Shown here piece after piece: positions 964 through 38,900 of a stretch of 64,000 bases of DNA. The stretch comes from Henricia sp. BOLD:AAB3569 (taxonomy: Eukaryota; Echinodermata; Asteroidea; Spinulosida; Echinasteridae): assembly GCA_037783545.1 (NCBI GenBank), contig JBBELK010000298.1, forward strand, positions 4,960,001-5,024,000, in the 5' to 3' direction. The notes beneath the pieces are model-generated. The model was not told the origin of the DNA. It did not search any database and saw nothing but the letters and a program-made list of their open reading frames with translations. Both the position numbers and the translations under genes were made by a program. Each line of letters starts with the position of its first letter. Position 1 is the first letter of the stretch.

Positions 964-3900
964 GTGCAGAATTTTATAAATTATGCAAATTTGTGCCACG
1001 AAATATGCAGCTCTGTGCCTTTGCAATGGAGCTGCGTATTTCGTGGCACGAATTTGGCGCACGCGCATTGCTGCCTTTAAACAAATAGTTTAAAACCGGC
1101 TAGGGGCCTGGATGCTGATAATGGACCGAGCCACCAGGCTCGGTTTGCCCTAACACTCGGGCCAAACAAAATAAATGGTGCGTTTACGGTAACGGCCTAA
1201 AAAAAATCCAGGTAGGTAGGTAGGAAAATAATTTTATTTTGTCTTTTTTTTTTACATTTCAGTTCATGCATTTGCGTGTTGTTTTGCAATGTTTGAAACT
1301 CACTATTAACACTCTATTAACCATGTTCATGTACAAGTGCAGAAAATGTTATGTTCGTTGGAAATTATTGCAAATAGTGCTCATTTAAAATTATCAACTT
1401 GAAAATTGGCAATAAAACGTTTGAGGTCGGTAATTTGGCCTAAAAGATTCCAGGTAGGTTGGGTTACCGTAAACACACCATTTATTTTGTTTGGCCTCAT
1501 GCAAATGCCGTAAAAACCCTGTGTACCAGGGGCACATTTTTTACCATGTCAAAAAATCAAAAGGTACATGGTACACCTGTGCCTTATACTTGTGTATAGG
1601 CCTATGGTACAAAATGTGCCAGCCGTCTACCTCCGGATTGCGCCTTATAATAATAATAATAGGCAGTTTTTAAACAACGCTGAATGCCGCAATAGGGCGA
1701 CATTTCGGGAAGACTCTCACCGGGGACCACCGAAATTTCGGCAAGAGTGACTCAAAATGACACCTTATTTTTTTACCCAAAGCTTCCAAAAATGGTTGCA
1801 GACCGAAGAGAGACAGCTCCAGTCCCAATAAAAATGGTTCTCGACCTAAAAAAAATGGTTTTTGACCTAAAAAAATGATTTTTTAACTCAAAAATATTAG
1901 GGCGACACTAAAATGTCGCCCTATTGAGCAGGTCGCCCTAATATAGCTTTTTTACACACGATTTGTCGCCCTATTCTAGCATTGATAGTAATTTTATATA
2001 GCACATTTCAGATCCAATGGATCCATCAATGCACTTTCTGCATTATTACCCCTGGTCATTGGGCTCAGTAGTATCATTCCTTAATCCTTCTCAGCTCCCT
2101 GGGGAGTATACAGCCCCAGCTGCCTTAGGCGCTCAATGGCTAATCAAACACATCAACTTTCGCTGCCCTCTCAGGTACCCATTTACATGTAGCTAGCTCC
2201 TGGGTGGAGAGAATCAATGCGTGACAAAGTACCTTGCTCAAGGGTACATGCACCATGGAAGGGCCGGGCCGGGATTCGAACCCACTATCTTTAGAACTAA
2301 CCCAGGTTTTTAGTACGATCCACTAGACCGTTCCGCCATAGCACATCATGGGTGCGCATTATACACGGGCCGGTGCACAAGATTATACGGTTGTATAACC
2401 CATAATTCCAATTATCATTGTTTGTTTTGCAGGTGGCTTAGCCGTCGCTGTTCCCGGGGAGATAGCGGGATACTGGATGGCTCATCAACGCTACGGCATT
2501 CTTCCTTGGAGGGCTTTATTCCAACCGTCTATCACATTAGCCGAAGATGGCTTCGTGGTCCAGAGGGCTCTGGCTCGGGTCATCAAACTGAAAGAAAAAG
2601 ACATCAGAAGCGATTTAAGCATGAGGTACATGTAACTACATTCGGCGGGTTTGTTTTAATATTTTTAAAAATCATTTATACATGTATTTAAAGTGTGTGA
2701 ATTAGTGATTATTTTTAGGGATTATGACCCAGGGGGCCAACGGGCCTTGAATAAATTTGATACAAATGTGGACAAATCTGGATGTGGGAAATCTAGATGC
2801 AGTGAAAATAAACTTGGCTCCACCGGGTTTCGAACGGCGGACCTTCTTCCTCACTGATTGGGTTTGGCTATCAAGTGAGCTTAGCAAGCCCTACAAAGGG
2901 ATAACCACGTACTTCAATGAGATGACCACTTCAACGAGATGACCACTTCAACGAGATGACCTAAGATGTGCCCCAAACCCCTGCCCGGCTTGCCCCAAGT
3001 GTGTGAATAAGTGATTATTTTTAGGGATTATGACCCATGTACCTTCAATGTCCTTATCTCCCAGATATGAGATTTAACCAAGTGTATTTAAACCTACACA
3101 ATTAAATTTATCAATGCAGAAACACTTAATAATACAACTGTATGCAACCAAGTGGTAAAACTGGTGTGCTTATACAGTACACCATTTTTGTAATGGTCTT
3201 TACTAAATTCTTGATTTTGTGGAATTCCTTACACGCATGTAATACTTAAATCATACCTTGTACACCTTGCAATGGTTCGGGTAGTCCTGTTTACCTTCAA
3301 AAGTGTACGTGCGCACTCGGATGTATGTAGTGTAATTTCGTTACACAACGCCATTGGTCCATGTACTTGTACTTGTACATGTACAGTGTTCATGAGTGTT
3401 TACAATACGCACAATTCAACGTACATTGCGTGGCGCGTCTTCATTTAATTTCGCCTAATTCCATTTTTCCCAGGGAAGTTTTTGTAAACTCTACTGGGGG
3501 ACTGTATCGGGAAGGAGACACGATAAGAAGGCTCAGATTGGCTGCAACTTACAGGAAAATAGCCAATGAGGGAGCAGACACATTCTACAAGGGGAGTCTT
3601 GCGGATGACATTATTGCTGATATAACCGACAAAGGTACTGTTAGTTTTAGTCAAATTTATAAAATTTGGATTTGAATCTTCTGCCATTAATCATCTAGAA
3701 TGCTGTCTATCATGGAATGGCCTGCCCAGTCACCTGGGGCCAATTTCATGGCACTACTAGAATTTCCTTGCTTCGTAATGAGTGTTGCCAGCCAAAAGTG
3801 TATGTCAAATTCTGTTTTTAGAAACAGTAGAAGAATATTTGTGGAGACGTGGTGGTCTAGTGGATAGCGTGTCTGACTTTCGGTCGAGAGGTCCATGGTT

Positions 3901-16112: not shown

Positions 16113-16606
16113 CATCGGCTGCTAGTATGCTACAGGCGGAATTACCCCAACAAGACAGTAATTTTTATCAGATGGTCGTCGACCACTAGTTGCAGGCAGA
16201 TGTGCGATTCGGCAACGAAGGTGGATTTTCTCTCGATAGAAAAGTCAAATCAAGCAATGTGGGGAAAAAACGCAGTCAACATCACCTCCACGAAAAGTTG
16301 CCTATCACGACCAAGGAACAGCTAGGGACCTATACTACCTAGTCGCACCTCGCACCTCAATAGACTGTATCGTGCTACACCGGCCACTCGTGCCGCACCA
16401 CTTCTTGATCAACAATACCATGCCACCCGGAGGATCTAATGGCGGCAAACGAGAAGGCTGTTCATGTGCAAAAGTCTAGCCGACCATTTGAAACAGAGAT
16501 GATGGACACGAAAGAAGAAGATAGTAACGTGCATGGCTGTTGCAACAAGCGATCCACCGAAACCCAAAGAATAGTCTTGATTCCAGACCGAAAGCATGAT
16601 TCGTTG

Positions 16607-18516
16607 TAGACTTGAGGTCAAGTCTCTAGACAGTCGTATTTGGTCCGTCTGACGCCTATAATCCCCACACGCAACAGTCGTTGTTATGAATAGTACCTGT
16701 CTAGAGACTTGAGAAACCTGTTTTCGCGCCAATATTAATGCTTCATGGCGCGTAATATATAATCACGCTGTTGCCATAGAACCAGCCAATAACATTTCGG
16801 CCATCGTGCCGTGGTAACGTCCACTTCTACCAGAGGGGATGTAATGTTATCTGATTCGGTTAATGCGTGTTTTAAAACTTCAATATTGTTATTTAGAGAA
16901 ACTGTGTTAAGCGTTTAGTGAAATGTAGTATGTTAAGTTACAGTCAAGAGCATTTATGATGTACAAATAAATGTACAACAATATTCATTAAAAAGATCTC
17001 CCCTATAATGATTATGGGAGATCTTGTATCAGCTTCTTTTGATGAATGTGTTCTAACAGTATCATATTCAAGTATTAACTCGGTATCAGTCCCTTTAGAT
17101 GTGATTGCGCCAATTACTTGTGTCACGTCAAGGGCTAAATACATCGATAAATTAAACTGCACAGCCCTTTACCACGTCGCAGAAAACAAATGAAGCTGAG
17201 CAGAATGTATTAAAACTATGTTTACCTTCTGTTGCTTTATCGTTTTCCAACTGTTGTGGCACTGTGCACAGTCCAGTTAACGCACCACAGACTAAGATGC
17301 GCTTTATGTAAAATTGAAAGGGATCGAGCGCACTGCCAACTTTCCAAACTCGAGCTAGTGGGTCAGTAATTTTGCCCGGTGTTTTTTTTTTTTTTTAATA
17401 CAAATTGGATTTTGGTTTTTGTTTGTAACATTCTTCTTCGACTAGTTGATTTTCAAAACGTGTTGCTGGTGTAGCTAAGATAATCTCAGCTCTTGTTTTA
17501 TCATTTTTCATTGGGATGTGGTCTAAAAAGACCACATCCCAATGAAAAATGATAAAACAAGAGCTGAGATTATCTTAGCTATTGCTGGTGGCTAAAATGG
17601 TCGGCATAATACCTACAAGTGGCGTGCGTGCTTAGTTTGTAACACAACTTTACTAGCTATCCTGCAAGAAATATTACAGTCTTGATAAATCAGATCTTCG
17701 CTCCAGATTAGAAAAAGTTCTGCAAACAAATCTTTCCTCACCATCGAAGATCTGCGTCCTTTCATACAAAACTGGCAAATGTTAAGAAGGTGACATATTT
17801 GACCGAAAGCTTGAAAAGCACATTAAAACTGCCCATTTGCTTATGAGACTTTGAAAAAAATCCAAAATTTCTATTTTGAGTTTTCACACAACATTTTCAC
17901 ACAACAAACCATTTTCACACAACAGACAATTAAGTTGCAACATATATCAAAAATAGTGTCACGACTGTGTGGCTGACGATGTCACAGATTTCCAAATCCC
18001 TAGCTTCGGTTTCAACGAGGCCGACAACCCCATTCTTTAGCGCCCATGCTTGACAGCACTGTTCAAAATTTCAGCTCTATCTTTCTCCAAAACCACGATC
18101 TGCAATCATGCAATCATCAGCGTTTGCGATTATATTTTAAACAAAAACCATCGATAATCCCAAATTCGCATAAACTGATCAAGTCGAATAGGCTTACATG
18201 TACGTAGCTAGTAAAAAAAATTGCACTTCAAGCTTGCTGCATGCGTTATTACGATGGAGATGAAACCCTATTCAAAATTCACAAAAACACATCCATTTAA
18301 AGGAGTACCATGAATATTAATGTAGCCCCGCGTTTCGACCAATCAGCTCTCTACGTCCAATTCTGGTAGCAATCTCCATAGACCGTGTACAAAACGGAAA
18401 CAGGTTTCTCAAGTCTGTAACTAGAGGTCGATTAGACTTGTTTCCAGTCCATTCGCGACTACGATGCTGCCGTTTACGAAACAGCCGGTCTAGTTACAGA
18501 CTTGACATCAAGTCTA
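16607..18516. mobile_element. Non-autonomous MULE-like transposon, copy 1 (uninterrupted, 1910 bp)
   Basis: The ends are TAGACTTGAGGTCAAGTCT and AGACTTGACATCAAGTCTA, with a perfect 9-bp target duplication GATTCGTTG at 16598-16606 and 18517-18525. Each end is itself a small palindrome (8-2-8). Subterminal inverted words pair as GACTTGAGAAACCTGTTTT near 16705 with AAACAGGTTTCTCAAGTC near 18398. The longest internal frame is 72 codons, so it encodes no transposase. A 9-bp duplication is typical of Mutator-like elements; the assignment rests on this and is inference. Copy 2 starts at 22270 and is identical wherever I compared it. Confidence 0.9.
17472..17581. repeat. Perfect 110-bp palindrome inside MULE-like copy 1
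   Basis: Two 53-base arms with no mismatch flank a 4-base AAAA loop. The arm starts TAGCTAAGATAATCTCAGCT. It is also present without change in copy 2 (23135-23244). It may be an inserted short foldback element or a functional hairpin of the transposon. Confidence 0.95.
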
Positions 18517-18541
18517 GATTCGTTGCAACACGTATACACTA

Positions 18542-22006: not shown

Positions 22007-23134
22007 AAAGCAGCGCTCGAATTTCACAATTTAGGCGTGGTGCTCAAAAAAATTTTAACGTAATTTTCTTTCTCCATAAAACAAAATACCCCAGAAGCAG
22101 AGTATCGGCGCGGCTGGCCGGCGGTATATACGTGAACGTTTGTAACAGTGATTTACAATAAATTCCTGGAGAAGACATTGCGCTGCCATTTCTGTGATGC
22201 ATGTACCCGGTGTGCAAAACCGTACACGTGCAAGTCCGGCGCGCTGATGTACAAACACATAGGGACCGTTAGACTTGAGGTCAAGTCTCTAGACAGTCGT
22301 ATTTGGTCCGTCTGACGCCTATAATCCCCACACGCAACAGTCGTTGTTATGAATAGTACCTGTCTAGAGACTTGAGAAACCTGTTTTCGCGCCAATATTA
22401 ATGCTTCATGGCGCGTAATATATAATCACGCTGTTGCCATAGAACCAGCCAATAACATTTCGGCCATCGTGCCGTGGTAACGTCCACTTCTACCAGAGGG
22501 GATGTAATGTTATCTGATTCGGTTAATGCGTGTTTTAAAACTTCAATATTGTTATTTAGAGAAACTGTGTTAAGCGTTTAGTGAAATGTAGTATGTTAAG
22601 TTACAGTCAAGAGCATTTATGATGTACAAATAAATGTACAACAATATTCATTAAAAAGATCTCCCCTATAATGATTATGGGAGATCTTGTATCAGCTTCT
22701 TTTGATGAATGTGTTCTAACAGTATCATATTCAAGTATTAACTCGGTATCAGTCCCTTTAGATGTGATTGCGCCAATTACTTGTGTCACGTCAAGGGCTA
22801 AATACATCGATAAATTAAACTGCACAGCCCTTTACCACGTCGCAGAAAACAAATGAAGCTGAGCAGAATGTATTAAAACTATGTTTACCTTCTGTTGCTT
22901 TATCGTTTTCCAACTGTTGTGGCACTGTGCACAGTCCAGTTAACGCACCACAGACTAAGATGCGCTTTATGTAAAATTGAAAGGGATCGAGCGCACTGCC
23001 AACTTTCCAAACTCGAGCTAGTGGGTCAGTAATTTTGCCCGGTGTTTTTTTTTTTTTTTAATACAAATTGGATTTTGGTTTTTGTTTGTAACATTCTTCT
23101 TCGACTAGTTGATTTTCAAAACGTGTTGCTGGTG

Positions 23135-23244
23135 TAGCTAAGATAATCTCAGCTCTTGTTTTATCATTTTTCATTGGGATGTGGTCTAAAAAGACCACAT
23201 CCCAATGAAAAATGATAAAACAAGAGCTGAGATTATCTTAGCTA
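23135..23244. repeat. Perfect 110-bp palindrome inside MULE-like copy 2
   Basis: It is identical to 17472-17581, with 53-base arms and an AAAA loop. Preservation in both copies indicates that it was part of the element before the copies separated. Confidence 0.93.
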
Positions 23245-23906
23245 TTGCTGGTGGCTAAAATGGTCGGCATAATACCTACAAGTGGCGTGCGTGCTTAGTT
23301 TGTAACACAACTTTACTAGCTATCCTGCAAGAAATATTACAGTCTTGATAAATCAGATCTTCGCTCCAGATTAGAAAAAGTTCTGCAAACAAATCTTTCC
23401 TCACCATCGAAGATCTGCGTCCTTTCATACAAAACTGGCAAATGTTAAGAAGGTGACATATTTGACCGAAAGCTTGAAAAGCACATTAAAACTGCCCATT
23501 TGCTTATGAGACTTTGAAAAAAATCCAAAATTTCTATTTTGAGTTTTCACACAACATTTTCACACAACAAACCATTTTCACACAACAGACAATTAAGTTG
23601 CAACATATATCAAAAATAGTGTCACGACTGTGTGGCTGACGATGTCACAGATTTCCAAATCCCTAGCTTCGGTTTCAACGAGGCCGACAACCCCATTCTT
23701 TAGCGCCCATGCTTGACAGCACTGTTCAAAATTTCAGCTCTATCTTTCTCCAAAACCACGATCTGCAATCATGCAATCATCAGCGTTTGCGATTATATTT
23801 TAAACAAAAACCATCGATAATCCCAAATTCGCATAAACTGATCAAGTCGAATAGGCTTACATGTACGTAGCTAGTAAAAAAAATTGCACTTCAAGCTTGC
23901 TGCATG

Positions 23907-23941
23907 CACGGACGTATATATAATTTCTGGACTCGCAATGT
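23907..23941 (+). repeat. P element left terminal inverted repeat (35 bp)
   Basis: It starts CACGGACGTATATATAATTT and ends CTCGCAATGT. It is perfectly complementary to 34794-34828. The next bases (AGGCACG) no longer match. Confidence 0.96.
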
Positions 23942-23975
23942 AGGCACGTTACTATGGTCGTGCATGAGGCTACGT

Positions 23976-23993
23976 CGGCCATTTTACATTGCC
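23976..23993 (+). promoter_or_regulatory. P element subterminal inverted repeat, left
   Basis: CGGCCATTTTACATTGCC lies 69 bases inside the left end. It pairs imperfectly (15 of 18) with GGCACAGTAAAATGGCGG at 34741-34758, 70 bases inside the right end. Drosophila P elements have internal inverted repeats that aid transposition, so this may be a comparable transposase site. That role is inference. Confidence 0.55.
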
Positions 23994-24524
23994 CATAGAA
24001 ACGTGTGTAAACACCGCGATATGCGTGAATTGCCTATCTTGCTGCAGTACGTGCGTGGTGATGTGTGGAGGCGCACTACTGTTACTAACGAAATGTAAAC
24101 ACCGCGAAATTTAAATGCTCAGTTTCCTTCGGTTAGCGCAATATTATAGGTGAGGAGTTTACGGAAATTGTTGTCGGTAAGAACTCGGACGTAGAGCTAT
24201 TTTGTTTTCCTTTAAATGACTTATTAAGCATACGTGCAAGCATACGTACAAAATTTGGAGGGGGAAAATATTAAGATTTTAACTAGTATTTAGAAAAAAA
24301 GGCCAACTTTGAATTTTTCTGAGTTTTCCCAGAGGTTTACTAAGGTTTAGTCAAGAGCATAGAGCTCTATGGGTTTAGTGTAGCTATGTTGGACTTGTAA
24401 ATGTTTTCCCTTGCTGAAGTGGAGACAGCTTTTCTCAGTTGTAATTTTATCAGTGAAAAGCGACATTTGGCTTTATTATTTTTTACAGGCATATTAGGCC
24501 TACATACGCGGCGAATTTGTGAAG

Positions 24525-24592
24525 ATGCCACGCTGTGTAGCGTATAACTGCACACATCGTTCCGGGACGGCTTCGAATGTGACATTCCACCG
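24525..24592 (+). CDS. THAP9-like: P transposase exon 1 (first half of THAP finger)
   Basis: The ATG at 24525 is the only start that gives the canonical THAP opening MPRCVAYNC. The exon ends CACCG|GTACGG, and joining to exon 2 restores the THAP word FHRFP. A downstream GT at 24598 would break this motif and is rejected. Confidence 0.9.
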
Positions 24593-27500
24593 GTACGGTA
24601 TGAGTTTTAGTATACGGGTTTTGTTTAAAATTGCCATGCACGGACACCCAAGGAATTTCCTTGTTATAGGCCTAGCTTGTAGACCCTACCATGTTAAACA
24701 TTTACTTTTAAGTTTGATGATAAAACACAAAATTAGGATGAAACTTGAAAGTGTCATGAATTTACAGCCCCACATGACCAATTGTTAAATCTGTAGGGCT
24801 AGGGGTTAGCTTTAGCACAATTGTCCGCGTTAATAAAATTTAAAAGGTCTATATATACCCATGGCCTAGATTTTGTTACAAAATCTACTCTTGGACTAGA
24901 CAAATTTAGTAATGATTACAGGACATGTGTTTTCCCTTGGCAAACTCTTTAGGCCTAGGCCTATTTCCATTTGGTTGCATTTCCACTCAGTTTAAATTCT
25001 AGATTTGCATTAATTTAGGCCATAGGCCCTATGGTAAAAAGCCCCGACATGATAAGCCCTAGCACATAAACTAGAGTTTCTTGAATTAAAGTTGAATAAA
25101 ATATCATTAAATAATTTAGACAAGAGATAATGAAGGATTGCTAAAACACTGTCTGACACAGCGGTGTCCACACAAAACATGTACATGTATCTGGCTAGCA
25201 TTTGCCCGTTAATAATAGGCCTATATATAGATCGAGTACTACTAAAATAATGAGGCCTACATTAAATTTTCGTTCCAGCTGAATACCAATATGGTCTTGG
25301 TCCCACTATTTAAAAAAAAATCACACCCCATCTTAAAATTGAATGCATTACTTTTCTTCATGCCGGACAGATTTCCCAAAAATAAAGACCGGTGTTCCAG
25401 ATGGACCGCAGCACTTCGAAGAGAAAACTTCACCCCAACACCTGGAACCACCATGCTATGCAGTGCTCACTTTTTGCAGAGTGATTTCGACAGAACCGGA
25501 CAAACAGTCCGATTGAGAGAAAATACAGTACCTAGTATTTTCAACTTTCCCAAACATCTGATCAAGGTTGGTATTAAATTACATTTTGGCAAAACAACCA
25601 CATTTTTCAGAAATTTGTTACATGAATGTGTTCATTTAAAGCCCCTCAGGTCATTTGCAGTGACCTAAAATGTTAAATTACTTGACAAGAACCCAGCTTA
25701 AACCATTCATTCAACACAAAAACCAAAATATTTTTTTAAAAGGTTTTCTGAAGTACATGTACACTGTAGCTATGTGGCTAAATTATCACAAAGCAGTTTA
25801 TCAACATTCATTACTCCCCAGGGAGCTGAGAAGGATTAAGGAATGATATTACTGAGCCCAATGACTAGGGGTAATAATGCAGAGAGCTTATTGAGAGATC
25901 CGTCGGATCTGTAATGCGCTATATAAGAACTGCCCATTATTATTTTAAGTAAGGTTTTTGGGTCATTGCAAATGATACAGTGGGCCTTTAAACCCAAAAT
26001 GGCATTTTACCATGTATTTTGGTATTGTCGGACAAATGTTCTGAATGTCCACAAAGATATGACTGCAGGTAAAGTTATCCTGCAACAAAGTTGCCTCCTA
26101 CAAACTCACCTTGGTCGAAAATTTATTTAAATGAGCGTGACCAGAGTTTCTGGAAAATAGTTTTCAATGTAACTTACCAATATTATCAAGTAACTCCCAT
26201 ACACACCTCCCATGTCCCCAAAACCCAAAAACATTCGCAATTTCCAGTAAAAAATTGAACAAAACTATCGAGTATGCTTTCAGCGGATAAACGTTGATAC
26301 TGGAAAATTAGTTTACAAATAATCGGTGGATTTTCGACGATATCCTCGGAAATATGCGGCCTAGAAGCGCGGGAGTTTCAGTTTCGTAATCAGAAAAATA
26401 TAACGGATGTTATGATATAAAAATCTCATGACCCATAAGTCCCGGGGAGTTATGGGTAAAAAAAAGTGATCTGGTCACACTCCTTTAAAATCTACATTTA
26501 ATAAGAAAATTTAGAGAGATTTGTTAGGAGGCGACTTTATTAGGGACGGCTTTGCCACACTACAAAATATGCATGTATATACAAACATTCTTGGGCCAAG
26601 GAAAAAACTGTTTCCTATTACATACAAAAACAATAATTGGAGTCCGTCACAATCTTTTATTTTTAGCTTGTAGCAGTTAACACATACATTAATACCACAT
26701 TCCAGCACTGCACAAGTGTTTTAAAATTGTAGGTACAAACACAAAAAATCATTTTTGGGGGGAGGGGAAGGTAATACGAAAATGTTTTTATTGATTAGAA
26801 GAGAACAATTGGATTCTGCCATATTTGTTAGGTTTGGGTGAGTAACAGGAAACAAAGCTATTTTTTTCCTTGACCTTATATCTATTGTTTGGTTTTTCTT
26901 GTTCGAGTAACTCTTTCTAACCTTTTGTTGCATGGATAGCCATACTACTTATGTATATAGGAATGCATGGTTTTGCATGTACAGTACATGGTGAATCTGC
27001 CTAGTCCCACCAGTATTATGTATCAGGTATGTTTCTTTTTTTAAAAATTGCCCGATCTGTTGGCAGAATGTTTAAACAAAATTCTTTGATACTGTTTGCC
27101 TTGGTGTTGAGTTTTCAAACTAAATACTTGTTATTTTAACTAAAAAGTGTCATTTCTTTACTAACTTGCCGAGGATTATAGTGCAACTGTGGAAGTGTGG
27201 GTTCAAATCCCACCCTGTTTCTAACAAAGCAGGTAGTTCAAGGAAGAGCACCACAATGGACACTCATTCACAGCAAGATGAAATTTTATAAACCAAATCA
27301 AACAGACCAATATACCGGTATTTTAATGAATAGCAAAGTACTTTTGCAGTGATTATGAAGGATTAACATATCAAGTTTGACAATCAGTAATTGATTTGAC
27401 AATAAAATTTTTTTTTTTTCAATCAATGCTGCAAACGACATTTAATAATAAATCAGATTTAGCAACACAATGTACATGATTTATAATATTAGTTATCCCA

Positions 27501-30295
27501 CTTGCGCTCGTGGAATACAGCATGATGTAGTGTGTCTGCATCCCATATCCCACTCGGCCTCGTGGGATATGGGATGCAGACACGCTACATCATACGACAT
27601 AAAATAGGATGCATAGGATAATGTCACACTGTTGTTGCCATGGATCCACCAATCAGAACCATGTATGCCTCAAGGCTTTTAATCAAGAATATACACTACA
27701 GTATAGATGTGCATATTGATTATGTCACCACTGTTTAAACGTATGTATACATGTACGAGTTATGCCAATTTTAATTTCAAATAACATGAGCACAATGTAA
27801 ATTCTACGTTTTCATTTTTTTAAACCTAGGAACCCCCAAGGAAACCCCCAGCAATAAGGCTATCACCTTGCAACAACACTGAAGGTGAGAGTTGGCCAGA
27901 ACCAGTCCAAAATTCTGATTCTGGGCCTACATGTACAACATCTGACCCTACATGTACAACATCTGACCACACCTATGCAATGCCATCAAACCCAGTCGTA
28001 CTCAAGCGGAAGCTAAATGAATCAAATTCACTGCTGCAGTCCTGTAGAAAAAAATTAAAGGTCCACCAACAGAAGAGTCGGCGGCTAAAGAAAAGGGTAG
28101 ATACACTTCAGTCAGTTGTTTCTGAGCTTAAAGAAAAAGGCTTCGTTTCCGACAACTGCGCTAAAATTCTTGAGTCCACTTTAAATGGAGTTCCCAAAGA
28201 AGTAATGAGCCGGCTCCTTAGAAATAACAACAGTGGTACGCACACAAAACAGGAATACGACCCTCAGCTCAAGGCATTTGCCTTGACACTCCATTTCTAT
28301 TCGGCCAAGGGATATGAGTACGTACGGGAGACCTTCGGGCTTGCTCTGCCGAGTTCCTCAACCATTAGAAAGTGGTATAGTGCAGTAGATGGGTCCCCTG
28401 GATTCAGCGAGGTTGTATTCAGAGCTCTGGAAGCCAGATTTCAAAAAGAGCGACAAGAGGGCAAGACCACACTCTGTGCTCTGATGTTGGATGAGATGTC
28501 AATAATGAAATCAGTTGAAATGTCAGGAGAGAAGGTTCTGGGCTACGTGGACTTCGGCAATGGAGTGCAGGATGATGCTGTTCCACTGGCTACTAGTGTC
28601 CTAGTGTTCCTGTTGGTTGCAGTAAATGGCAGTTGGAAGGTCCCTCTGGCACACTTCATGGTTACTAGTCTGACAGGCAAGGAACAGGCAAATCTTGTCA
28701 GCCAGTGCCTCATCAAATTGCACGAAATAGGAGTGCAGGTTATTTCACTCACTTGTGACGGGCCATCAGCACATGTTGCTATGCTTAATGAGCTTGGAGC
28801 AAACATGAGTCGGGCAGACATGAATCCATCCTTTCCACACCCTGCAGATCCACATCAGAAGATCTGGGCAATGCTGGATGCCTGTCACATGCTGAAGCTG
28901 GCCAGGAATTGCTTAGGCACCCTGAAAGTATTAAGAGATCGAAATGGTCAATTCATCGAGTGGAAATACATTCAAGCTCTATATGACCTGCAGAAAAGAG
29001 AGGGGCTACGACTGGGTAATAAACTTAGCCGGAAACACATAGAGTGGAAATCCAATGTCATGAAGGTCGACGCTGCAGCACAAACCCTGAGTGCTAGTGT
29101 GGCAGATGCTATAAAATTCTGCCGAGAGAATCTCAAAATGGCCAGCTTTCAAGGGAGTGAAGGGACCTGCACCTACATTGAAACACTGGATCATCTTTTT
29201 GATGTACTTAACTCTCGAAACCCACTGGCACGAAATTACAAGGCACCACTGAAGGCATCTCGTGAAGGGTTGTTTTTGCCGTTCTTAGACGACGCCTACG
29301 GCTATCTTGCCACTCTCAAAAATTTCTTAGGTGAAATTCTGTCCAAAACTCGGAACAAAACAGCATTCATCGGATTCATGGCATGCATCAGGAGTGTACT
29401 AAATCTGTACCAGATCTACGTAAAAGAAGCAGAGTCCCCACTCAAGTACCTGCTAACGTACAAGTTCAGCCAGGATCACATTGAGCTGTTCTTCGGTGCA
29501 GTTCGCCTGTCATGTGGTTCCAACAACAACCCGACTGTGAGGCAATTCATCTCGGCCTACAAGCGTCTCCTGATGCGACATGATATCAAAGTTAACAAGG
29601 GAAGCTGTTCGGCTCAGGATGCCACCAGGATTCTCGATGCAGCTTCTTTCAGCAATATAGTGAAGCAGGCTGTTCCTGATGAGAGTCAAGACATGCTGGT
29701 TGCAAGACGCTATGACCTGGAACTCCGATCACCATCGCAGGATGAGCATGACTATGCTGACATTCCTAACTTTGCTCAACTCTCCATCTTCACTGAGTCC
29801 TGTGTGGGGTACATAGCAGGATATGTGATCAGAATGGTAAGACGGACATTAAAGTGTTCAGAATGCTTAGGGGCATTGACCAACAGTGCTGAAAATGATG
29901 TGGCTTCAAGTGCATATTCCTTGATCACAGTAAAAAACCGAGGTGGGCTTACCATTCCATCAAGAAGCGTTGTACAGGTCTGCAAAGCAACTGAACGCTG
30001 CATCAAGAGGCTTCTGGCGGTAACAGACGGAAAAATGCCTCAGCAAAGAGGAATCAAGAAAGCCATCTCAGGTTCTGTTCTAGCAGAAGTTGGTTCCACA
30101 ACATTTGGAAGTCTCAACAACCACATGCTGGACACTGAAGCAGAGAATAATCACATATTCAGTCTAATAAGATGCATATCAGAATGCTACTGCAAGGTAC
30201 GCCTACACCATGTAGTCAGACTATGGAAGGATGAACTTCGGCCAACCTCGATCAGAAAGAAGCTGAGCAAACTGATCCTTTTCTCGGGTCAGTAG
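24525..30295 (+). CDS. THAP9-like: THAP-domain P-element transposase (THAP9-like), intact, 909 aa
   Basis: The exons are 24525-24592, 25371-25566 and 27830-30295, joined in frame at GT-AG sites. It is a nuclear DNA-binding enzyme that cuts and joins P-element ends. Residues 1-88 form a THAP zinc finger with C4, C9 and a C-x2-H pair, the FHRFP word across the first junction, and TVPSIF near its end. Residues 146-193 are a Lys/Leu-rich coiled coil. Next comes the P-element HTH region ([20 protein letters not shown]). The RNase-H-like catalytic core shows Asp309 (LMLDEMS), Asp398 (TCDGPS), the [12 protein letters not shown] motif at 436-447 and Glu640 in [12 protein letters not shown]. Length and order match human THAP9 (903 aa). 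No stop or frameshift was found, so it may be active. Confidence 0.95.
24593..25370 (+). other. P transposase intron 1
   Basis: 778 bases with GT and AG ends, splitting the THAP domain after the Arg of FHR. AT-rich, with no nested element recognised. Confidence 0.8.
25371..25566 (+). CDS. THAP9-like: P transposase exon 2 (second half of THAP finger)
   Basis: The acceptor is GCCGGACAG and the donor is ATCAAG|GTTGGT. It encodes [11 protein letters not shown], then the ligand pair in CSAHF and the closing TVPSIFNF of the THAP domain. It ends in phase 0, matching exon 3. Confidence 0.92.
25815..25940 (+). repeat. SINE tail fragment within the P element
   Basis: It begins CCCCAGGGAGCTGAGAAGGA, continues ATTACTGAGCCCAATGACTA and ends GCGCTATATAAGAACTGCCC. 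This is the 3' half of the SINE family in the GGT introns. Confidence 0.75.
27523..27592. repeat. 70-bp hairpin in P transposase intron 2
   Basis: TGATGTAGTGTGTCTGCATC pairs with the complementary right arm with one mismatch. The stem continues through CCATATCCCAC/GTGGGATATGG. The loop is short (TCGGCCTC). Confidence 0.85.
27830..30295 (+). CDS. THAP9-like: P transposase exon 3 (coiled coil and catalytic domains)
   Basis: The acceptor is TTTTAAACCTAG. The frame is open for 821 codons to TAG at 30293-30295. The first 50 codons form a Pro/Ser/Thr-rich linker with a duplicated PTCTTSD. The open frame with an ATG at 27980 is a sub-part. Besides the catalytic residues, it holds the [11 protein letters not shown] motif after the Glu and a Cys pair in CSECL near the C-terminus, both usual for P-type transposases. 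Confidence 0.95.
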   Translation, partial: EPPRKPPAIRLSPCNNTEGESWPEPVQNSDSGPTCTTSDPTCTTSDHTYAMPSNPVVLKRKLNESNSLLQSCRKKLKVHQQKSRRLKKRVDTLQSVVSELKEKGFVSDNCAKILESTLNGVPKEVMSRLLRNNNSGTHTKQEYDPQLKAFALTLHFYSAKGYEYVRETFGLALPSSSTIRKWYSAVDGSPGFSEVVFRALEARFQKERQEGKTTLCALMLDEMSIMKSVEMSGEKVLGYVDFGNGVQDDAVPLATSVLVFLLVAVNGSWKVPLAHFMVTSLTGKEQANLVSQCLIKLHEIGVQVISLTCDGPSAHVAMLNELGANMSRADMNPSFPHPADPHQKIWAMLDACHMLKLARNCLGTLKVLRDRNGQFIEWKYIQALYDLQKREGLRLGNKLSRKHIEWKSNVMKVDAAAQTLSASVADAIKFCRENLKMASFQGSEGTCTYIETLDHLFDVLNSRNPLARNYKAPLKASREGLFLPFLDDAYGYLATLKNFLGEILSKTRNKTAFIGFMACIRSVLNLYQIYVKEAESPLKYLLTYKFSQDHIELFFGAVRLSCGSNNNPTVRQFISAYKRLLMRHDIKVNKGSCSAQDATRILDAASFSNIVKQAVPDESQDMLVARRYDLELRSPSQDEHDYADIPNFAQLSIFTESCVGYIAGYVIRMVRRTLKCSECLGALTNSAENDVASSAYSLITVKNRGGLTIPSRSVVQVCKATERCIKRLLAVTDGKMPQQRGIKKAISGSVLAEVGSTTFGSLNNHMLDTEAENNHIFSLIRCISECYCKVRLHHVVRLWKDELRPTSIRKKLSKLILFSGQ

Positions 30296-31102
30296 ATCTT
30301 GCACACACGACAACCAAATTAACACATCGAGCAGGAGTGCATTGTGGCCACATACTATTATATATACACTGGACAGGACGTTCCCTGTGTATTTGTGCAG
30401 CAGCGCGTCAGAATGCATAAATATGCACGTGTAGGGTTTACATGCACCGTACACATGCGTGTGGTAACACGGTTTGAAATTTTTTAAAAACAAGGTGGCA
30501 TACAAGGGAAATCACATATCACAGATCATTGCAATTTTTTGCATTGTTGCAAACTTTTTAGCAAAATTATACATTAGTTTGCAAAAATATTTGCCCTATC
30601 TGAAATATTTGCAAAGATCGATAGTGTTCTGCAATGTCCTTTGTATGCCATCACAAACCCTTTAGACCATTCTCATCACCATGGAAACTGTCCCTGTATG
30701 TGCGCCATAGCTGGAATACGGTCAGTGCATAAACTACATGTGTTATGTAATGATGCTCATTTTGTCGTATGTAATGATGCTAAATTTGCGCGTTTGTTGT
30801 GGATTACATAGAGCCTTTTCGCACACTTTAAGAAAAAGTGATGGAGAGGGAATTTTGAGTAAAACGATGCACTGAAAAATCACTGAATTATGAAAACACT
30901 TTACATCCAACATGTCCAGGCTAATTCTGTGGTTTTTGGTGCGTTGTTACACCTTAAATTCCTTCCACAGCTTGGACGGAAAGCGCGCATGGCAATCATG
31001 GGCAAAGAGGCTCAGTGTGAATTTGCGTGTGCGAAGAGCATGTGTAATGGTTCCCAGTGGATGTCCATTTCCCTTTGTTCAATGTATACGGAAAACAAAT
31101 TA

Positions 31103-31503
31103 GGCCAAACAAAATAAATGGTGTGTTTACGGTAACGGCCTAAAATAAATCCAGGTAGGTAGGTAGAAAAATAATCTTATTTTGTAATTTGTTTTTACAC
31201 TATTAGTTAATTTGGTTAACTAGTTAATTTGGTTATGGAAATAAAGTGAACTGAACTGAACATTTCAGTTCATGCATTTGCCAGTCGTTTTGCAATGTTT
31301 GAAAATCACTATCAACACTATTAACCATGTTCATGTACAAATACATGTACCATGTATACAAAATGTTATGTTCGTTTGATAGTACGTGCTCATTTAAAAT
31401 TAGCAACTTGAAAATAGGCAATAAAAAGTTTGAGGTCGGCAATTTGGCCTCAAATTCAAGGTAGGTCGAGTTACCGTAAACACACCATTTCTTTTGTTTG
31501 GCC
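31103..31503. mobile_element. Harbinger-like MITE, copy 2 (nested in the P element)
   Basis: The ends are GGCCAAACAAAATAAATGGT and its complement, with target duplication TTA at 31100-31102 and 31504-31506. At 401 bp it is longer than the other copies because of extra AT-rich sequence around 31190-31260. Confidence 0.8.
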
Positions 31504-31760
31504 TTACCCTAAATGCTTCCAACCAGTACTCACTAGGGAAATCGCTTCCTTTCACGAAGAGTCGGCGAAGAGATTTCCTGATGTGAAGCGCTTTCTGTAG
31601 TAAGAACGGGGTCATAGAGCAAACTTACTGCAAGGGGAGAACCGGCTGCAGGTACAACATTGCAGTGAGCAGCCTTTGAATTCTTGATCTTGTGTGATGT
31701 GACTTCAGGAAAAGTCGACCCAACTGAAAATAGTCCATGTACATATATAATTAAAAAGTA

Positions 31761-32180
31761 AAATCATAAACTAATCGGATGTATTTTATGTGTATTTAAC
31801 AGGATGTATTTTTAATATGTATATATATCTATCGTGATTCTTTTAGTCCATGTTAGCTACTTGGAAATCTGTGACGTCATCAGCCGCGCAGTCGTGACAC
31901 TATGGTCCATTCCGTAACCGAAGTGTTTTCCGGTATTTAGTATGCTTTCCTGTAAATAGTACTACTGGCTGCCCAAGAAAAATCATAAACTAACCAGATG
32001 TATTTTATGTATTTTATGTATATTTAACAGGATGTATTTTATGTATTTTATGTATATTTAACAGGATGTATTTTATGTATATATATCTATTGTGATTTTT
32101 TATTCCGTGTTAGCAACTTTGAAATCTGTGACGTCATCAGCCACGCAGTTGTGACACTATGGTCAAATTTGTAACTGAAG
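31761..32180. repeat. Imperfect direct duplication of about 220-255 bp
   Basis: AAATCATAAACTAA at 31761 recurs at 31980, and AATCTGTGACGTCATCAGCC at 31867 recurs at 32124. The second unit has an expanded inner repeat of GTATTTTATGTATATTTAAC (three rounds). Confidence 0.75.
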
Positions 32181-32404
32181 TACTCTGCCTAAGACTGTTT
32201 AATGTCGGTTGATGGTGCCTTTTTTAGTTTGCTCTTGAAGGACAAGATAAATGTATAACGCTTGAATTTAAGACTAATCAAGAAAAAATAACGTGCTTCA
32301 TGTCAAAGAGGGCGCTAGAGCTTTGCATCACATCACAATTTTTAAAGTTGCCGTCTATTCATTTTTATTGACGATTCTGCACGTAAATTTGACACATTTT
32401 TAAA

Positions 32405-32578
32405 AAAAGGAAAGAAGGGGCATACCTGCCTACGGGCGCTCATCTTCCGGGGCTGATGCTGGTGGCGATGTACAGCTAAATTTTTCGGACCAATGGGAAA
32501 TCCTGCGACCACTTCGAGGTTCGAACCCACGACCCTCCGATTGCAAGCCCGACGCTTTACCGCTGCGCCACAGTGCTG
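32405..32578 (-). mobile_element. tRNA-derived SINE, minus strand (nested in the P element)
   Basis: Read on the minus strand, the head is GTGGCGCAGCGGTAAAGCG (A box) and GTGGGTTCGAACC (B box). It is followed by GCCACCAGCATCAGCCCCGG. It could be mistaken for a tRNA gene, but the anticodon arm and acceptor stem do not close and a SINE body follows. Confidence 0.7.
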
Positions 32579-32825
32579 AATTAAGTCACTATCCATGTAC
32601 ATGTACATATAAAATTAAAAAGAAATAATTATATACACAGTACCGGAATATATTGTTTTTTTCTATTATATTTTGAGTTAAACTGCTTAATTTTATATGT
32701 ATTTATTCTTAATGTATTTATTCAAAGCTCACCTAGTATTAATATTCAATATTGTACCCGTCTGCTTCCTGGCCTTTATATTTTTTTAGATATGCATAAC
32801 TCCAACGGGTATTGATAGACGAATT

Positions 32826-32894
32826 ACTTGCATCTTCAATTCCACTTTCTCAATCAAACACGTTTATTGAGAAAGTGGAATTTGAGATGCAAGT
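32826..32894. repeat. 69-bp hairpin
   Basis: ACTTGCATCTTCAATTCCAC and the complementary right arm form a nearly perfect stem continuing through TTTCTCAAT/ATTGAGAAA. Confidence 0.85.
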
Positions 32895-33141
32895 ACATCA
32901 GCTATCAACGATCGTTGGATTTACGCCCATCTCAAAAATATAACCGTGCTAGTACATGTAGGAGGCAGACAGGCTCTGTGTACATTTTTAAATGCCGTTC
33001 ATGTATTCTTCCTCCATGGTTGTACCAATGGCTGTAATGTGCCATGCTGTGCAGATTACATTTTTAAAGTTTGTTCCTTCTGTGATTAAATTTTGCGTAA
33101 AATTTAAAGGAATATTTTAAGAGTAAATTACGGAAACAGGT

Positions 33142-33334
33142 CATCTCGTACATGTACGCGAACCAACTCGTACGCGTGCCAACTCGTACACGTGGCAACT
33201 TGTACACCTGCCAACTCGTACACGCTCCAACTACCGGTAAGTTAGGTCGGTGCACGAGTTGGTCGGTGTACGAGTTGGCCTGCATACGAATTGGCTGCGT
33301 ATGAGTTGGCATGCGTACTACGAGTTGACCAGCA
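33142..33334. repeat. Mirrored array of CCAACTCGTACACG units
   Basis: Four units of the type CCAACTCGTAC read left to right, followed by about five units in the reverse complement (GTACGAGTTGG), meeting near 33238. Spacers vary, so the units are 15-20 bases long. Confidence 0.85.
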
Positions 33335-33638
33335 TTCTAACAGTACATTCCCATTTATCCCAAGCCCAAGGCTTATTTTGAAAATAATGGTATTTGTTCG
33401 TATACATTGAATAAAGATTTGAAGGAAATTACCTCCTGGAATCAACAGATAATATAATTTTAATAGGCCTACTTCCCACTTGCACTTTTGTTGCAAATGT
33501 TGCTTTTCTGTAGAAAAACATTTTCTCCCTCAAAAATTGCCTTCAGTTAGTGCAAAAGATAACCATTCACGCGCGTGCGCAGCGCCCTCTAGTGCTGTAA
33601 TTTTATAGTTTATTTATCTCAGAAATGCAACATTTCCG

Positions 33639-34001
33639 ACCGGTGTGAAGTTGGTTACTTATTCGACGTTTGACGTTCAATATTCAACAAGGAGCTGTTA
33701 CTTATTCAACATTCAATAAGGAGCTGTTACTTATTCGACATACAAATGCACAGAAAATTTTATTTCAAAGGGTCAAATGCCCCACCCTGGGGCATGAAAA
33801 ACGTGACCAAACCCCCACCTAGGATGGAGCAGCGCGAGTGGTGGGGGTTAAGTAACAGCTCCTTATTGAATGTCAAATAAGTAACAGCTCCTTATTGAAT
33901 GTCGAATAAGTAACAGCTCCTTATTGAATGTTGAATAAGTAACAGCTCCTTATTGAATATTGAACGTCAAACGTCGAATAGGTAACCAACTTCACACCGG
34001 T
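33639..34001. mobile_element. Non-autonomous foldback element with 9-bp target duplication
   Basis: The ends are ACCGGTGTGAAGTTGGTTAC and its complement. Target duplication ACATTTCCG lies at 33630-33638 and 34002-34010. The arms contain tandem units of about 29-31 bases with AATAAGGAGCTGTTACTTAT. The left arm has two units and the right arm four. The centre is unique. The duplication length suggests a Mutator-like origin. Confidence 0.85.
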
Positions 34002-34309
34002 ACATTTCCGACAGAAGTGCAAGTGGGAATTTAAAAAAGTAGGCCTATAATCTTCAATTGGATTATCTGTTGATTCCAGGAGGTCATTTCATTCAAACTT
34101 TTGTTCAATGTATACGAAACAAATACCAAAATAATAAACTCATAACAAAAAATGGGCTGTATTATTTTATACAGGGCCTACATTACCAGATTACATCTAC
34201 ATGTACCTTTTGACATGGCAGTGCCAGTGGTTTGATCCTTGGACAACTCGACTTGTCTTGGGGACAACTTGATATTTGTAGGCCTACCTACCTGCAGTGG
34301 CACTACATG

Positions 34310-34404
34310 CACTATGACTGAGCAACTAACATTGGAAATTGGGCACACACCATTGTTTATAACGATGGTGTGTGCACAATTTCCATTGTTAGTTGCTCAT
34401 AGTG
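34310..34404. repeat. 95-bp hairpin
   Basis: CACTATGACTGAGCAACTAA with ACATTGGAAATTGGGCACAC pairs almost perfectly with the right arm; the loop is TTTATAA. It is probably a short MITE. Confidence 0.88.
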
Positions 34405-34740
34405 TACCCACCTGGACATTATTTTTTAGTTGACCCACCCTATTTAAACCGTGGGCATGCATGGTGGGCGGTACGTCACCTCCGCACATGTATATGCGCT
34501 GCAGAGCGAATCGAATCGGTCGGTCACGCTAAAGACATGAAAGAAACACTCATCAAACTTCACTTTCATAAAAGCCCAACACACCGATTTCTTTATTAAT
34601 TAATTTTTTTCAATAGTCCCAACAAGGCAATTGGCCTGAAAACTGTTTTGAAAGATCGGCAAGTAGGTCAAAATTAGTGAAAACATGCCGCCAAATACGA
34701 CATTTCCCATGCCTTTACGTGTGTTTATTCAGCAAACGGA

Positions 34741-34758
34741 GGCACAGTAAAATGGCGG
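34741..34758 (-). promoter_or_regulatory. P element subterminal inverted repeat, right
   Basis: GGCACAGTAAAATGGCGG is the partner of 23976-23993. It is placed nearly symmetrically, 70 bases from the right end. Confidence 0.55.
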
Positions 34759-34793
34759 TAGTCTGGTTCGGGTTTTACTTCGACGATTCGGGC

Positions 34794-34828
34794 ACATTGC
34801 GAGTCCAGAAATTATATATACGTCCGTG
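34794..34828 (-). repeat. P element right terminal inverted repeat (35 bp)
   Basis: It starts ACATTGCGAG and ends ATATACGTCCGTG, an exact reverse complement of the left end. The second copy of the GCTGCATG duplication follows directly. Confidence 0.96.
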
Positions 34829-35139
34829 GCTGCATGCGTTATTACGATGGAGATGAAACCCTATTCAAAATTCACAAAAACACATCCATTTAAAGGAGTA
34901 CCATGAATATTAATGTAGCCCCGCGTTTCGACCAATCAGCTCTCTACGTCCAATTCTGGTAGCAATCTCCATAGACCGTGTACAAAACGGAAACAGGTTT
35001 CTCAAGTCTGTAACTAGAGGTCGATTAGACTTGTTTCCAGTCCATTCGCGACTACGATGCTGCCGTTTACGAAACAGCCGGTCTAGTTACAGACTTGACA
35101 TCAAGTCTAAGGGACCGTCCGCTCCATCGTAGTTGTTAA

Positions 35140-35949
35140 AGGAACACGTTGCCTTCGGGTTGCGCTTTATTGGGCGTTTTTGGGCTATTACAAGCGTTTG
35201 AAGTATAATGAGCACGATCTGAAAGATGTTTAAAAAGTAGAATATAATGATCCACACGAACGTGCCTTAGAAATGCTTCAATTTTGCGTAATTTCTCGAA
35301 GCAGCACGCTCCGCCATTTATGGGAGTCAACATTTTGACTCCCATAAATGGCGGAGAAATTATATTAGTCTTATTTCCAGCCTGGAGAAAGAAATTATTT
35401 TTGCTTCCTCCGTTGCGTGTGATGTGCCTGTTTTTTTTAATTCGTGTCTACAATAACCATTGGGTATAAATCATCCAAGTCCTTTCTATCGGTTTGTCCC
35501 ATGACAATATTCTTACCCTGATTGGCGAGGTTTTCGTTTTTTCTTTTTTGACTCGTCTGTTGTGTTCTCTTGACGATCCATTTTTTGACAGCCAGTCGGT
35601 GTGTGTGTGTAAGTGTGTTTACATTTCACACATGTCTCGGGAGGCGGAGAATGGTATGGTACCTTGCGTTCATCTGATAAGTTTACCTGACCACTGGCTA
35701 CGGCGCCAGCCTAACTCCTGTTCGTCGCTGCATCTTGCCCACTACCCGGACGATCGTATTGACGGCTTGAAATACGTATACATTTCGCGGGACATGTAGT
35801 GGGGGTCAGAGGTCAGTGTTTGTTTTTTTTAATTACCATTCACTAATTATAACACATTAAATGTGTTTTATTGCAAGAACAACTCCTAATAAGTATAAGG
35901 AACACCCTCAAACGTAAGATTTCGTGAAATCTGAAGGCAACGTGTTCCT
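35140..35949. mobile_element. TTAA-type non-autonomous transposon (810 bp)
   Basis: The ends are AGGAACACGTTGCCTTC and its complement GAAGGCAACGTGTTCCT, flanked by TTAA at 35136-35139 and 35950-35953. TTAA duplications occur in piggyBac and Kolobok elements; the AGGAAC start does not fit the usual CCC start of piggyBac. A short hairpin (CCGCCATTTATGGGAGTCAA) lies at about 35311-35357. A 101-codon frame at 35494 has no recognised homology. Confidence 0.8.
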
Positions 35950-35953
35950 TTAA

Positions 35954-38900
35954 ATCCGTGGTTTGTGGCTGTAAAGGCGGATTCACACTATTGCGGAAAA
36001 ATTAGACTGTGCCATTGGTTTGTACACAAACTGGTTTGCCGCTTGTGCGCGGCCTATCGCGACGCGCACAACGTTTTGAGCTGGGTCAAAGTTCAAATTT
36101 GTTGAACTTTGACCGCGGTGCGCTGACCTTTCCAACGCGCAGCCAATGAGGTATCAGAGAAGCCCCAAGTTACCAGAGTGGAATTTTCTATTTTGGAATA
36201 ATCGGCATTTTACTTTTTCAAAACTAGTCCCTGACGGCACTATTCGATCCCCCCCGCAAAACTCGCTGGTTACGGGCCTGACTCCTGATCCTGAAGACGA
36301 ACAGAGCACGCTGTTCGAAACGTTGAGTTAACACAGTCACTCACCGGTTCTTTTTAGAACCACACATACACAAAAGAGATTCACATGGTGCTACCGTAAA
36401 CCCATACACACGTAAACCTGCTGTGTCGCCATGTCAGATTATCTGACAGATTCCGTTCATTTTGTGCGCGATACGAGACCGAGCAAACCGCCTTCCATTG
36501 TTCCTTCATCATTCCAAGGAATGTGTGTAAACAAAAGGGAAGAGTGTGTTAGGTATAGATGTGACAAAGGAGTCCCTTTGTCACATATCGTGCTGGTACA
36601 CTTACAAAGTAAAGACAATAATTCAGGACACAAAACGTTCACAGATATATCCGAGCATAACACACCTTTAATTCTCAACTCGAATACCGTTCAAATATTT
36701 GTATAAATCAACCCAAACAAGAGAACTACTTGACTGCGAGCGCCACCCCTAGGTGAATGGAATCGTCCCCTGAGAGGTATCGAATTATTTCGGAGCGCCA
36801 AACCAAGTGTCATGCCAATTTGCACGAAAGCGTGCACACTCATCGTACAGGTTATTTTGGAACGAGCATTATCGTAATCAGCTGGTTGAAAACATTGGAA
36901 AACGTTAACGTAAACTGCAGCGCTTTGAGAATTTGCTACATGGAGCACTTCTGAAGGTAAGGGTGTTAAAATAGCGTGTCCTTTGCACGCTGTTCATGCT
37001 GCTGAGAGTACAGTGAGAGTCGGGGAAAATGTACATCACCTAGCGGTTTCTTCATGATAGATGTTCCGACGCACAAACCAACCATGACCCAAATTAATTG
37101 ATTATGAAGCTTATTTACATAATTCGTCTGGCCTGGTACACCTCATTTAATATATTTAGCTCGTATGAATCGTGGTTGTGCACCAAGACTGAATTTTCTT
37201 GTCAAAATAAATTGTGTATGCACTTGATTCGGAATTTTTGTTTGTGCACACGGGTTAGAGCCACGCAAGTAGATCGTGGTGTTGTCAGTGTGGTTGTAAA
37301 ATTGCCCAATAATAATTATTATTTTCCAATTCCACGTGAAATGCTAATTTTCTGTTGTCGTTGGCTTACCACACGAGATTGAAATATGCTGCGGTTACGA
37401 TTCAGTGATTTCGTGAATAGCAACTGTGTATAAGATCGTGGTGACAAAATGGCGACTAAAGTGTGGTAGTCAATGTATTTCTGTATTCATTATCACGAAA
37501 TCATGCAGTAGGCCTACCCGTGTAAAATATTATAAAAGGCATTGAAATACCACTGTTGTGTGTGTGGCCTTTCAACCATTGATTGTTGCCAAATACATAA
37601 GATCTTAGATTATGTGGCGTGGGCGCTTGAGCATTGTCATGCACCCTATACCTTGTGGTAGAATAAATTTATGTGACACTGCAAAGCATGCAGCGTGACC
37701 AGATCACTTTTTTTAAACCCACCATTTTTCCCATGGGCGTTGCGAGGTATAAATACCGTACACCCCGCCACTACTTCACCCTAATATGACATGATAATGT
37801 CCCAGAAAGTGTAAATTTGGTTAGGAAACATGATTTTAGCAATGAGAAAATATTAAGTTTTTCTTTGAAAACACTTGGGCTTTTGATGTCATGCTCCATA
37901 GACTTAGTGCATGGAGCCTCAAGTGGCGATGGTGTATGGTAGTTTTTCCAGTTTCAGCCACATGCAGATGCATCAATGCCTGGTATATAAAGCCTTTAAA
38001 ATCCATGCATGGTGTGTTTGTGTTAAATGAATGGGGGAAAATGTTGTTACAGAAAGTTGTTACAGAAAATACCATCTCTGACAGAAAAAAAAAATACATG
38101 TGGTTTTTATTACCATTTATACTAACACTTTGAGCAAGGCTTTGAGCAAGGTGTTTCTTGTCAATAATTTTCGGTATGATGATTGATGTACGTAGGTCTT
38201 TGAAGGCCTTGTATACAAAACACACAAGACTGGCTCATGTTCTAAAAGGAAGAACATCACACCTATTATGTTGCCAGATATATGAGATCTAGTGACTCCC
38301 CCGGCCCTCATTCCCAGCTAACTAAATAACGTCCCCCGAACGTTAGCGGCACGTTCAGGGGACGTGTCAATTGTACTTAAGACAATTTTATTATGACGCA
38401 ATTGTGATGTAATCAATGACGTACTGTAATCGGAATACATGTATTTTTAATGCGTAATTACAATTAATTATTGCGTAATCAACTAATCGCTTATCTTCCA
38501 GCTATATGGCTCTTGATACCAGTCACTTCCTCTACTCTGTTAGTGTTAGTCTGTAAGGACGCTTGATAAATATATGCTCCTTGAATTTCCTTCGTATGTA
38601 GTCACGGTTGGCGGTCATTGGAAACCACATTTTCCTGTTATTTCTTCCAAATATTACCTTTTTAGACTATAGATGGGTTTTATATACAAAATTACATACA
38701 TTTGAAATCAGGCAGTGCGTGCATGGTTACGACGTAAAGCTTAAAACTCTTAATTTCTTGTTTCTATCACCAAGCATGGAGGAAGGAAAACCAATAACTC
38801 ATTAACCATGCGCGATAAAGTGTTATGTTAATTGTTACACCGTCATTGTACACCCAAATGCCCCTTTGCTATAACTGTTTTGCCCATTTTCCTCGTAAAT

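Follow-up and report, generated by a model that had tools for sequence, protein, structure and literature searches.

An apparently complete and recent P-superfamily transposon nested in a dispersed repeat of the sea star Henricia

Organization of the locus

The window analysed here is a stretch of 64,000 nucleotides from the genome of the sea star Henricia sp. BOLD:AAB3569 (GenBank assembly GCA_037783545.1, contig JBBELK010000298.1, forward-strand positions 4,960,001 to 5,024,000). The mitochondrial code of this genome agrees with an echinoderm: COX1, on a 16,221-bp contig, is free of stops under genetic codes 5, 9 and 13, and all 8 of its AAA codons align with Asn of the best solved chain, which is mammalian, in favour of code 9. 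With 840 bits to this chain, an echinoderm is more probable than a flatworm, a hemichordate being a formal alternative. It contains a P element of 10,922 bp, hereafter F1, at positions 23907..34828 (+). F1 is bounded by two terminal inverted repeats (TIRs) of 35 bp, the left one at 23907..23941 (+) and the right one at 34794..34828 (-), which match each other perfectly over exactly 35 bp and diverge beyond. The same eight letters, GCTGCATG, flank the element on both sides and form a target site duplication (TSD) at 23899..23906 and 34829..34836. Perfect 35-bp ends and an 8-bp duplication had been reported in a preliminary description of the locus and are confirmed here. When up to 3 mismatches are allowed, the 35-bp end is matched twice in the window and in none of 100 dinucleotide shuffles.

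F1 splits one of two copies of a host repeat. The interrupted copy B occupies 22270..35109, in two parts (22270-23906 and 34829-35109), and its uninterrupted sister, copy A, occupies 16607..18516 (1,910 bp). The nested insertion and the readable empty site that had been proposed for this arrangement are borne out: after in silico excision of F1 together with one GCTGCATG, the joined flanks are identical to 16607-18516 over all 1,910 letters, and the empty site lies at 18236-18243. The host repeat has 19-bp ends, TAGACTTGA(G/T)GTCAAGTCT, with one mismatch. Copy A is flanked by the 9-bp duplication gattcgttg (left 16598..16606, right 18517-18525) and copy B by agggaccgt (left 22261..22269, right 35110-35118). 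Because these outer duplications differ, the two copies represent separate insertions at two loci. Mutator-like elements (MULEs) produce target duplications of 9-11 bp, and the 9-bp duplication at both window copies fits this range, which is the sole MULE criterion examined. The repeat holds no open reading frame (ORF) of at least 150 aa with an ATG, GTG or TTG start; no autonomous relative was sought.

The host repeat was searched for in the whole genome (740.7 Mb). With its first 200 bp as query, all 40 scored matches were 100% identical (rounded), 35 of them scoring 361 bits and the other 5 scoring 357; these are the best 40 of 677 first-look candidates and include both window copies. With 200 bp spanning the F1 site as query, 40 of 40 scored matches cross the site at 94-100% identity. 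They are the best 40 of 238 first-look candidates, copy A being one of them, and this search counts empty sites only, as interrupted copies are unable to rank in it. The repeat is more varied around the F1 site than in its first 200 bp, and no other insertion-site match is as close to the two window copies as they are to each other, the next one reaching 99%. Since genome matches to the host repeat are many and near-identical, the repeat that received F1 belongs to a young and abundant family.

The transposase gene

A start-codon ORF search over positions 16000-44000 found one long frame, at 27980-30295. The preliminary description had attributed an intact transposase gene to the element. This holds as far as the sequence is concerned, although the gene extends beyond that one ORF, with its THAP domain predicted on two upstream exons. 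Candidate GT and AG sites were scanned near places picked by eye, which gave four open joins. In the resulting GT-AG gene model, exon 1 (24525..24592, +) would carry the start codon and the first part of the THAP domain; exon 2 (25371..25566, +, with its end at 25566 or 25570), also backed by Pfam, would carry the remainder of that domain. Exon 3 (27830..30295, +, with its start at 27830 or 27852) encodes, according to Pfam and phmmer, the P helix-turn-helix (HTH), the RNase H fold with its D/D/E triad, the GTP-binding insertion and a THAP9-type C-terminus. The exon 1 donor at 24592 was chosen because it yields a THAP domain without insertion. Either exon 2/3 junction leaves the frame open over the three putative exons: 25566/27830 gives a protein of 909 aa and 25570/27852 one of 903 aa.

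Domain searches place this protein among the P transposases. The THAP domain (Pfam PF05485, E 1.4e-17) covers residues 4-80 when the first 200 residues are searched and spans exons 1-2; both this match and the C2CH zinc-finger pattern, from residue 4, depend on the predicted exon 1/2 splice. In the long frame, Pfam detected the N-part and C-part of RNase H (3.9e-44 and 1.1e-19), the GTP-binding insertion PF21788 between the two halves (E 4.4e-46), the P HTH (7.8e-23) and THAP9_C (2.4e-9). The best solved relative found with phmmer is the Drosophila P transposase 6p5a (E 2.8e-26), whose catalytic residues D230, D303 and E531 (PMC7776569) are matched in the alignment by D309, D398 and E640 of the 909-aa model. 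F1 has an RNase H triad, a GTP-binding insertion, a THAP domain, an 8-bp TSD and 35-bp TIRs, all features by which the P superfamily is recognized; TIRs of this superfamily are reported to measure about 30-50 bp (PMC3688188).

The 3' non-coding part of F1 contains a small nested repeat (31099..31506) with relatives elsewhere in the window, at 1160-1497 and 60686-61015.

Copies and short relatives of F1

The transposase search, with a 771-aa query, gave 21 matches in the genome, two of which are full and 100% identical: the window copy and a copy on another contig, C666 (597767-608628). The C666 copy measures 10,862 bp, has perfect 35-bp ends and a TSD differing from that of the window copy, and keeps the nested small repeat. 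The two copies are separated by 15 substitutions and 8 indels, the largest of 34 bp. The coding sequence makes up 25% of the length and contains none of the 15 substitutions (chance 0.013); its single indel is of 3 bp.

A genome search for the ends had been set beforehand as a test of the element, and the ends do occur together elsewhere. With up to 3 mismatches, the 35-bp F1 end has 78 matches in the genome (reversed control, 0), among which 22 convergent pairs lie less than 20 kb apart. Thirty-one sources were read, comprising the window, the place on C666 and a further 29 stretches: both ends are present in 19 of them and not in 12, at least two of which (C757, C899) stopped before the partner end. 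Exact 8-bp TSDs flank 17 of the 19 elements with both ends. At each of 12 shifted offsets only 0 or 1 of the 19 shows such a duplication. Unshifted, the duplication extends to 9 bp in none of the 19.

Seventeen of these 19 elements are short, 1.7-5.2 kb, and all 17 bear the F1 35-bp end, changed at no more than one position at either end. Three of them (L019, L020 and L026) are 99.74-99.88% identical and have three different TSDs; their near-identity at different sites therefore points to recent movement. Nine short relatives were compared with F1. Over the last 94 bp, six of them are 98-99% identical to it, whereas L027 reaches 91% and L021 and L022 reach 85%. In the last two, the TIR and the subterminal box (described below) of the 3' end are brought closer together by a deletion of 11 bp, about one turn of the helix. 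Little of the interior of these nine elements is shared with F1: four of the nine have an inserted repeat of about 365 bp in common, and some share 33-37-bp matches. The longest stop-to-stop frame in the short relatives is of 202 codons (14 of the 17 examined), and the transposase search found no match at their places.

L021 (1685-3432) and L022 (1733-3484), both on C142, face opposite ways at a distance of about 6 kb, and their TSDs with 4-base flanks are reverse complements. They are probably one insertion within an inverted duplication; L022 was dropped, so that 16 exact TSD sites count as independent. Among these, 4-7 of the 16 sites agree per position, which gives no clear signal of a palindromic target preference. 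At 21 of 32 site-sides, the base two positions outside the TSD is a G (p 3.8e-8), and at 17 of 32 the first TSD base is a G (p 4.3e-5), both positions having been chosen post hoc and set against the base composition of the window.

Two further observations concern the ends. At G000:C899:283563-293160, a pair of F1 ends lies 9,598 bp apart, and the transposase search found no match between them; the first part of this place (L032) was read. A variant of the 35-bp end with three fixed differences occurs at 16 genome places, e.g. G000:C60:798718-798752, and probably marks a further sub-family.

Other P families and a common subterminal box

Two other families of P elements reside in the same genome. 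The transposases of F2 (C1280, C882) and F3 (C331, C258) are 35-37% identical to that of F1, and F2 and F3 share about 72% DNA identity in their transposases. Their long end sequences differ from those of F1 and start with CATAGAG. The TIRs are perfect over 40 bp in the F2 copy of C1280 and over 47 and 53 bp in F3, while that of the F2 copy of C882 is perfect over 25 bp before a one-base insertion. All four copies have exact 8-bp TSDs, with spans of about 7.6-9.9 kb.

One motif recurs inside the ends of all three families. In F1, the 5' subterminal box GCCATTTTACATTGCC (23978..23993, +) begins at bp 72 from the tip and the 3' box GCCATTTTACTGTGCC (34741..34756, -) at bp 73. Beyond the TIRs, a box GCCAT[GT]TT is found at six of six ends (one copy each of F1, F2 and F3), once per end and in a single orientation, starting 71-94 bp from the tip (72/73 in F1, 73/87 in F2, 94/71 in F3). 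Summed over the six ends, the cost of the best common 8-mer is 2 mismatches, whereas in 60 shuffles it was never below 6 and averaged 8.1; longer words also stay below the shuffled minimum (k=10, cost 6 against 11; k=12, cost 11 against 17). This comparison assumes six independent ends, but F2 and F3 are related, so common descent may explain part of the agreement. By analogy, the box is a candidate THAP-binding site. The asymmetric 9/21-bp spacing of Drosophila P was not seen for F1, whose boxes stand at 72 and 73; in F2 and F3 the two distances are unequal. The F1 TIR was also examined for an internal direct repeat of its tip heptamer, a reading that was dropped, as only 4-5 of 7 letters match.

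The coexistence of F1, F2 and F3 allows a tentative, rather doubtful proposal: the common subterminal box could be a shared docking site kept by all three, with the tips acting as a specificity code. The odds of this are lowered because F2 and F3 are close kin and hence not fully independent witnesses. If true, non-autonomous partners could be contested or shared between the P families, and with copies about 0.12-0.14% apart the process would be recent or ongoing.

A fourth P-type transposase, F4 (L009; C175:1161347-1163305), has an open frame of 1,131 codons with a repetitive linker. In 10.7 kb around it, seven pairs of candidate ends with an exact 8-bp duplication were found, with only 11-12 of 20 tip bases matching, none of them convincing. 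F4 was left out of the box-motif count and is possibly a domesticated THAP9-like gene. The F1 tip was not found in any of the transposase loci L005-L016, a result that is uninformative, as the F1 copies' own stretches (L005 and L006) stop before the ends.

Nature and activity of F1

Taken together, the sequence evidence makes it very probable that F1 is a P-superfamily DNA transposon of the cut-and-paste kind, young and apparently autonomous, in an echinoderm. The three-exon gene would produce a P transposase of THAP type, about 909 aa long. If the Drosophila P element is taken as a model, its THAP domain may bind the subterminal box some 70 bp from each tip, and its GTP-dependent RNase H core may pair and cut the 35-bp ends; insertion with an 8-bp stagger would then leave the 8-bp duplication. 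The F1 transposase would most likely also mobilize in trans the more numerous short elements, whose likeness to F1 lies mainly in the ends.

The transposase gene could instead be a domesticated host gene of the THAP9 type around which transposon ends occur by accident. Human THAP9 is described as such a gene, devoid of transposon hallmarks (PMC7776569), THAP9_C matches the F1 protein, and F4 offers a long open frame with no convincing ends in the same genome. Against this, perfect ends and a TSD surround the whole F1 unit and empty sites exist, which leaves domestication hardly credible; a single-copy gene of this kind is ruled out by the C666 copy with its own 35-bp ends and TSD. It would be just as surprising if the locus were an artefact of assembly, in which an insertion-bearing allele had been placed beside the empty allele. 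The identity of the host copies over 1,910 bp at a distance of 3.75 kb could suggest this, but their different outer flanks and 9-bp duplications are those of separate insertions of a dispersed repeat, and F1 itself recurs with another TSD on another contig.

The activity of F1 and its role as master of the short elements are more debatable, and several observations weigh against them. Only two of the 21 transposase matches are F1 transposase. Of the 78 end matches, 34 have no partner within the pattern tolerance and 20 kb, and two of the 19 pairs have no exact TSD, L027 showing one mismatch and L035 five. F1 may thus be complete yet no longer active, being fixed, silenced or endowed with an inactive protein. 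This is possible but rather unlikely in view of the open frame, the conserved triad, the lack of substitutions between the two coding sequences and the near-identity of short relatives at three sites. Furthermore, over 123-127 bp the 5' end of the nine short relatives is only 83-85% identical to F1, so that an element not sampled here, or since lost, could be their true master. Mobilization of the short relatives by another P transposase, that of F2, of F3 or of such a master, is also favoured by the scarcity of interior shared with F1. It is nevertheless somewhat less likely still than the loss of F1 activity, given that the 17 short relatives all bear the F1 end whereas the F2 and F3 ends differ, and that, among contigs with a transposase match, the F1 end is present only on C298 and C666, the sites of the two F1 copies. 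Mobilization by the F1 transposase is thus preferred for the short relatives.

Other features of the window

A histone 3' untranslated region stem-loop (RF00032, 36.2 bits) was detected at 36341-36386 (+); none of the six ORFs of at least 60 aa in 35110-36600 is histone-like by eye. At 546-1085 (+), an open stretch matches gamma-glutamyltranspeptidase (PF01019, E 6.8e-24).

Comparison with known P elements

Repbase lists P families of sea urchins. Intact P elements outside flies had been presented as rarely documented in the preliminary description, which is too strong, as complete elements outside Drosophila are already in print for Anopheles (PMC1562414) and for zebrafish with Pdre2 (PMC10983969). 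Among echinoderms, a sea cucumber is reported to have THAP9-like genes that include a P transposase domain (PMC13228809). No complete echinoderm P element with ends was found among the matches listed in literature searches, Repbase being outside their scope, and two strings of the F1 TIR were not found in a literature text search. The Henricia locus adds what looks like a complete, recent echinoderm P system, with a master, a second copy, short relatives and empty sites. Its co-resident families with defined ends provide a ready comparison for the end sequences needed by a THAP-type P transposase, and full-length F1 is a candidate transposition tool for deuterostomes.

F1 resembles the Drosophila melanogaster P element in its transposase, which combines THAP, RNase H (D/D/E) and GTP-binding parts, in its 8-bp TSD and in its perfect TIRs, of 35 bp against 31 bp in Drosophila (PMC7776569). 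An internal transposase site near each TIR is likewise described for Drosophila P (PMC7776569), at positions 53-63 and 41-51 (PMC3688188), and would correspond to the candidate box of F1. F1 differs by its three putative exons, by the position of this box (bp 72/73) and by its size, 10.9 kb against 2.9 kb. The greater length had been noted in the preliminary description; it is real but not peculiar to the window copy, the C666 copy and the F2 and F3 elements being long as well. Unlike those of Drosophila melanogaster P, the short relatives of F1 are not simple internal deletions. In Galileo, a member of the P superfamily in Drosophila, the reported THAP footprint extends from +63 to +80 from the end, near the F1 box (about 72-88), whereas the TIRs measure 0.5-1.2 kb against 35 bp in F1 (PMC3688188).

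Outside Drosophila, zebrafish Pdre2/zfTHAP9 is, like F1, of THAP9 type with TIRs and an 8-bp TSD, and Pdre2 is reported in multiple internally deleted copies (PMC10983969). Its described ends consist of 13-bp TIRs and distant 12-bp subterminal repeats instead of 35-bp TIRs, and it was excised in cells by its transposase (PMC10983969), whereas the activity of F1 is predicted from sequence. The setting of F1 is closest to that described in Anopheles gambiae, where several P families with 8-bp TSDs are co-resident: nine subfamilies with TIRs of 27-31 bp are reported, together with miniature inverted-repeat elements (P-MITEs) (PMC1562414). Like the short relatives of F1, these P-MITEs have a master's ends around an unrelated interior, at 205-2,450 bp against 1.7-5.2 kb in Henricia (PMC1562414).

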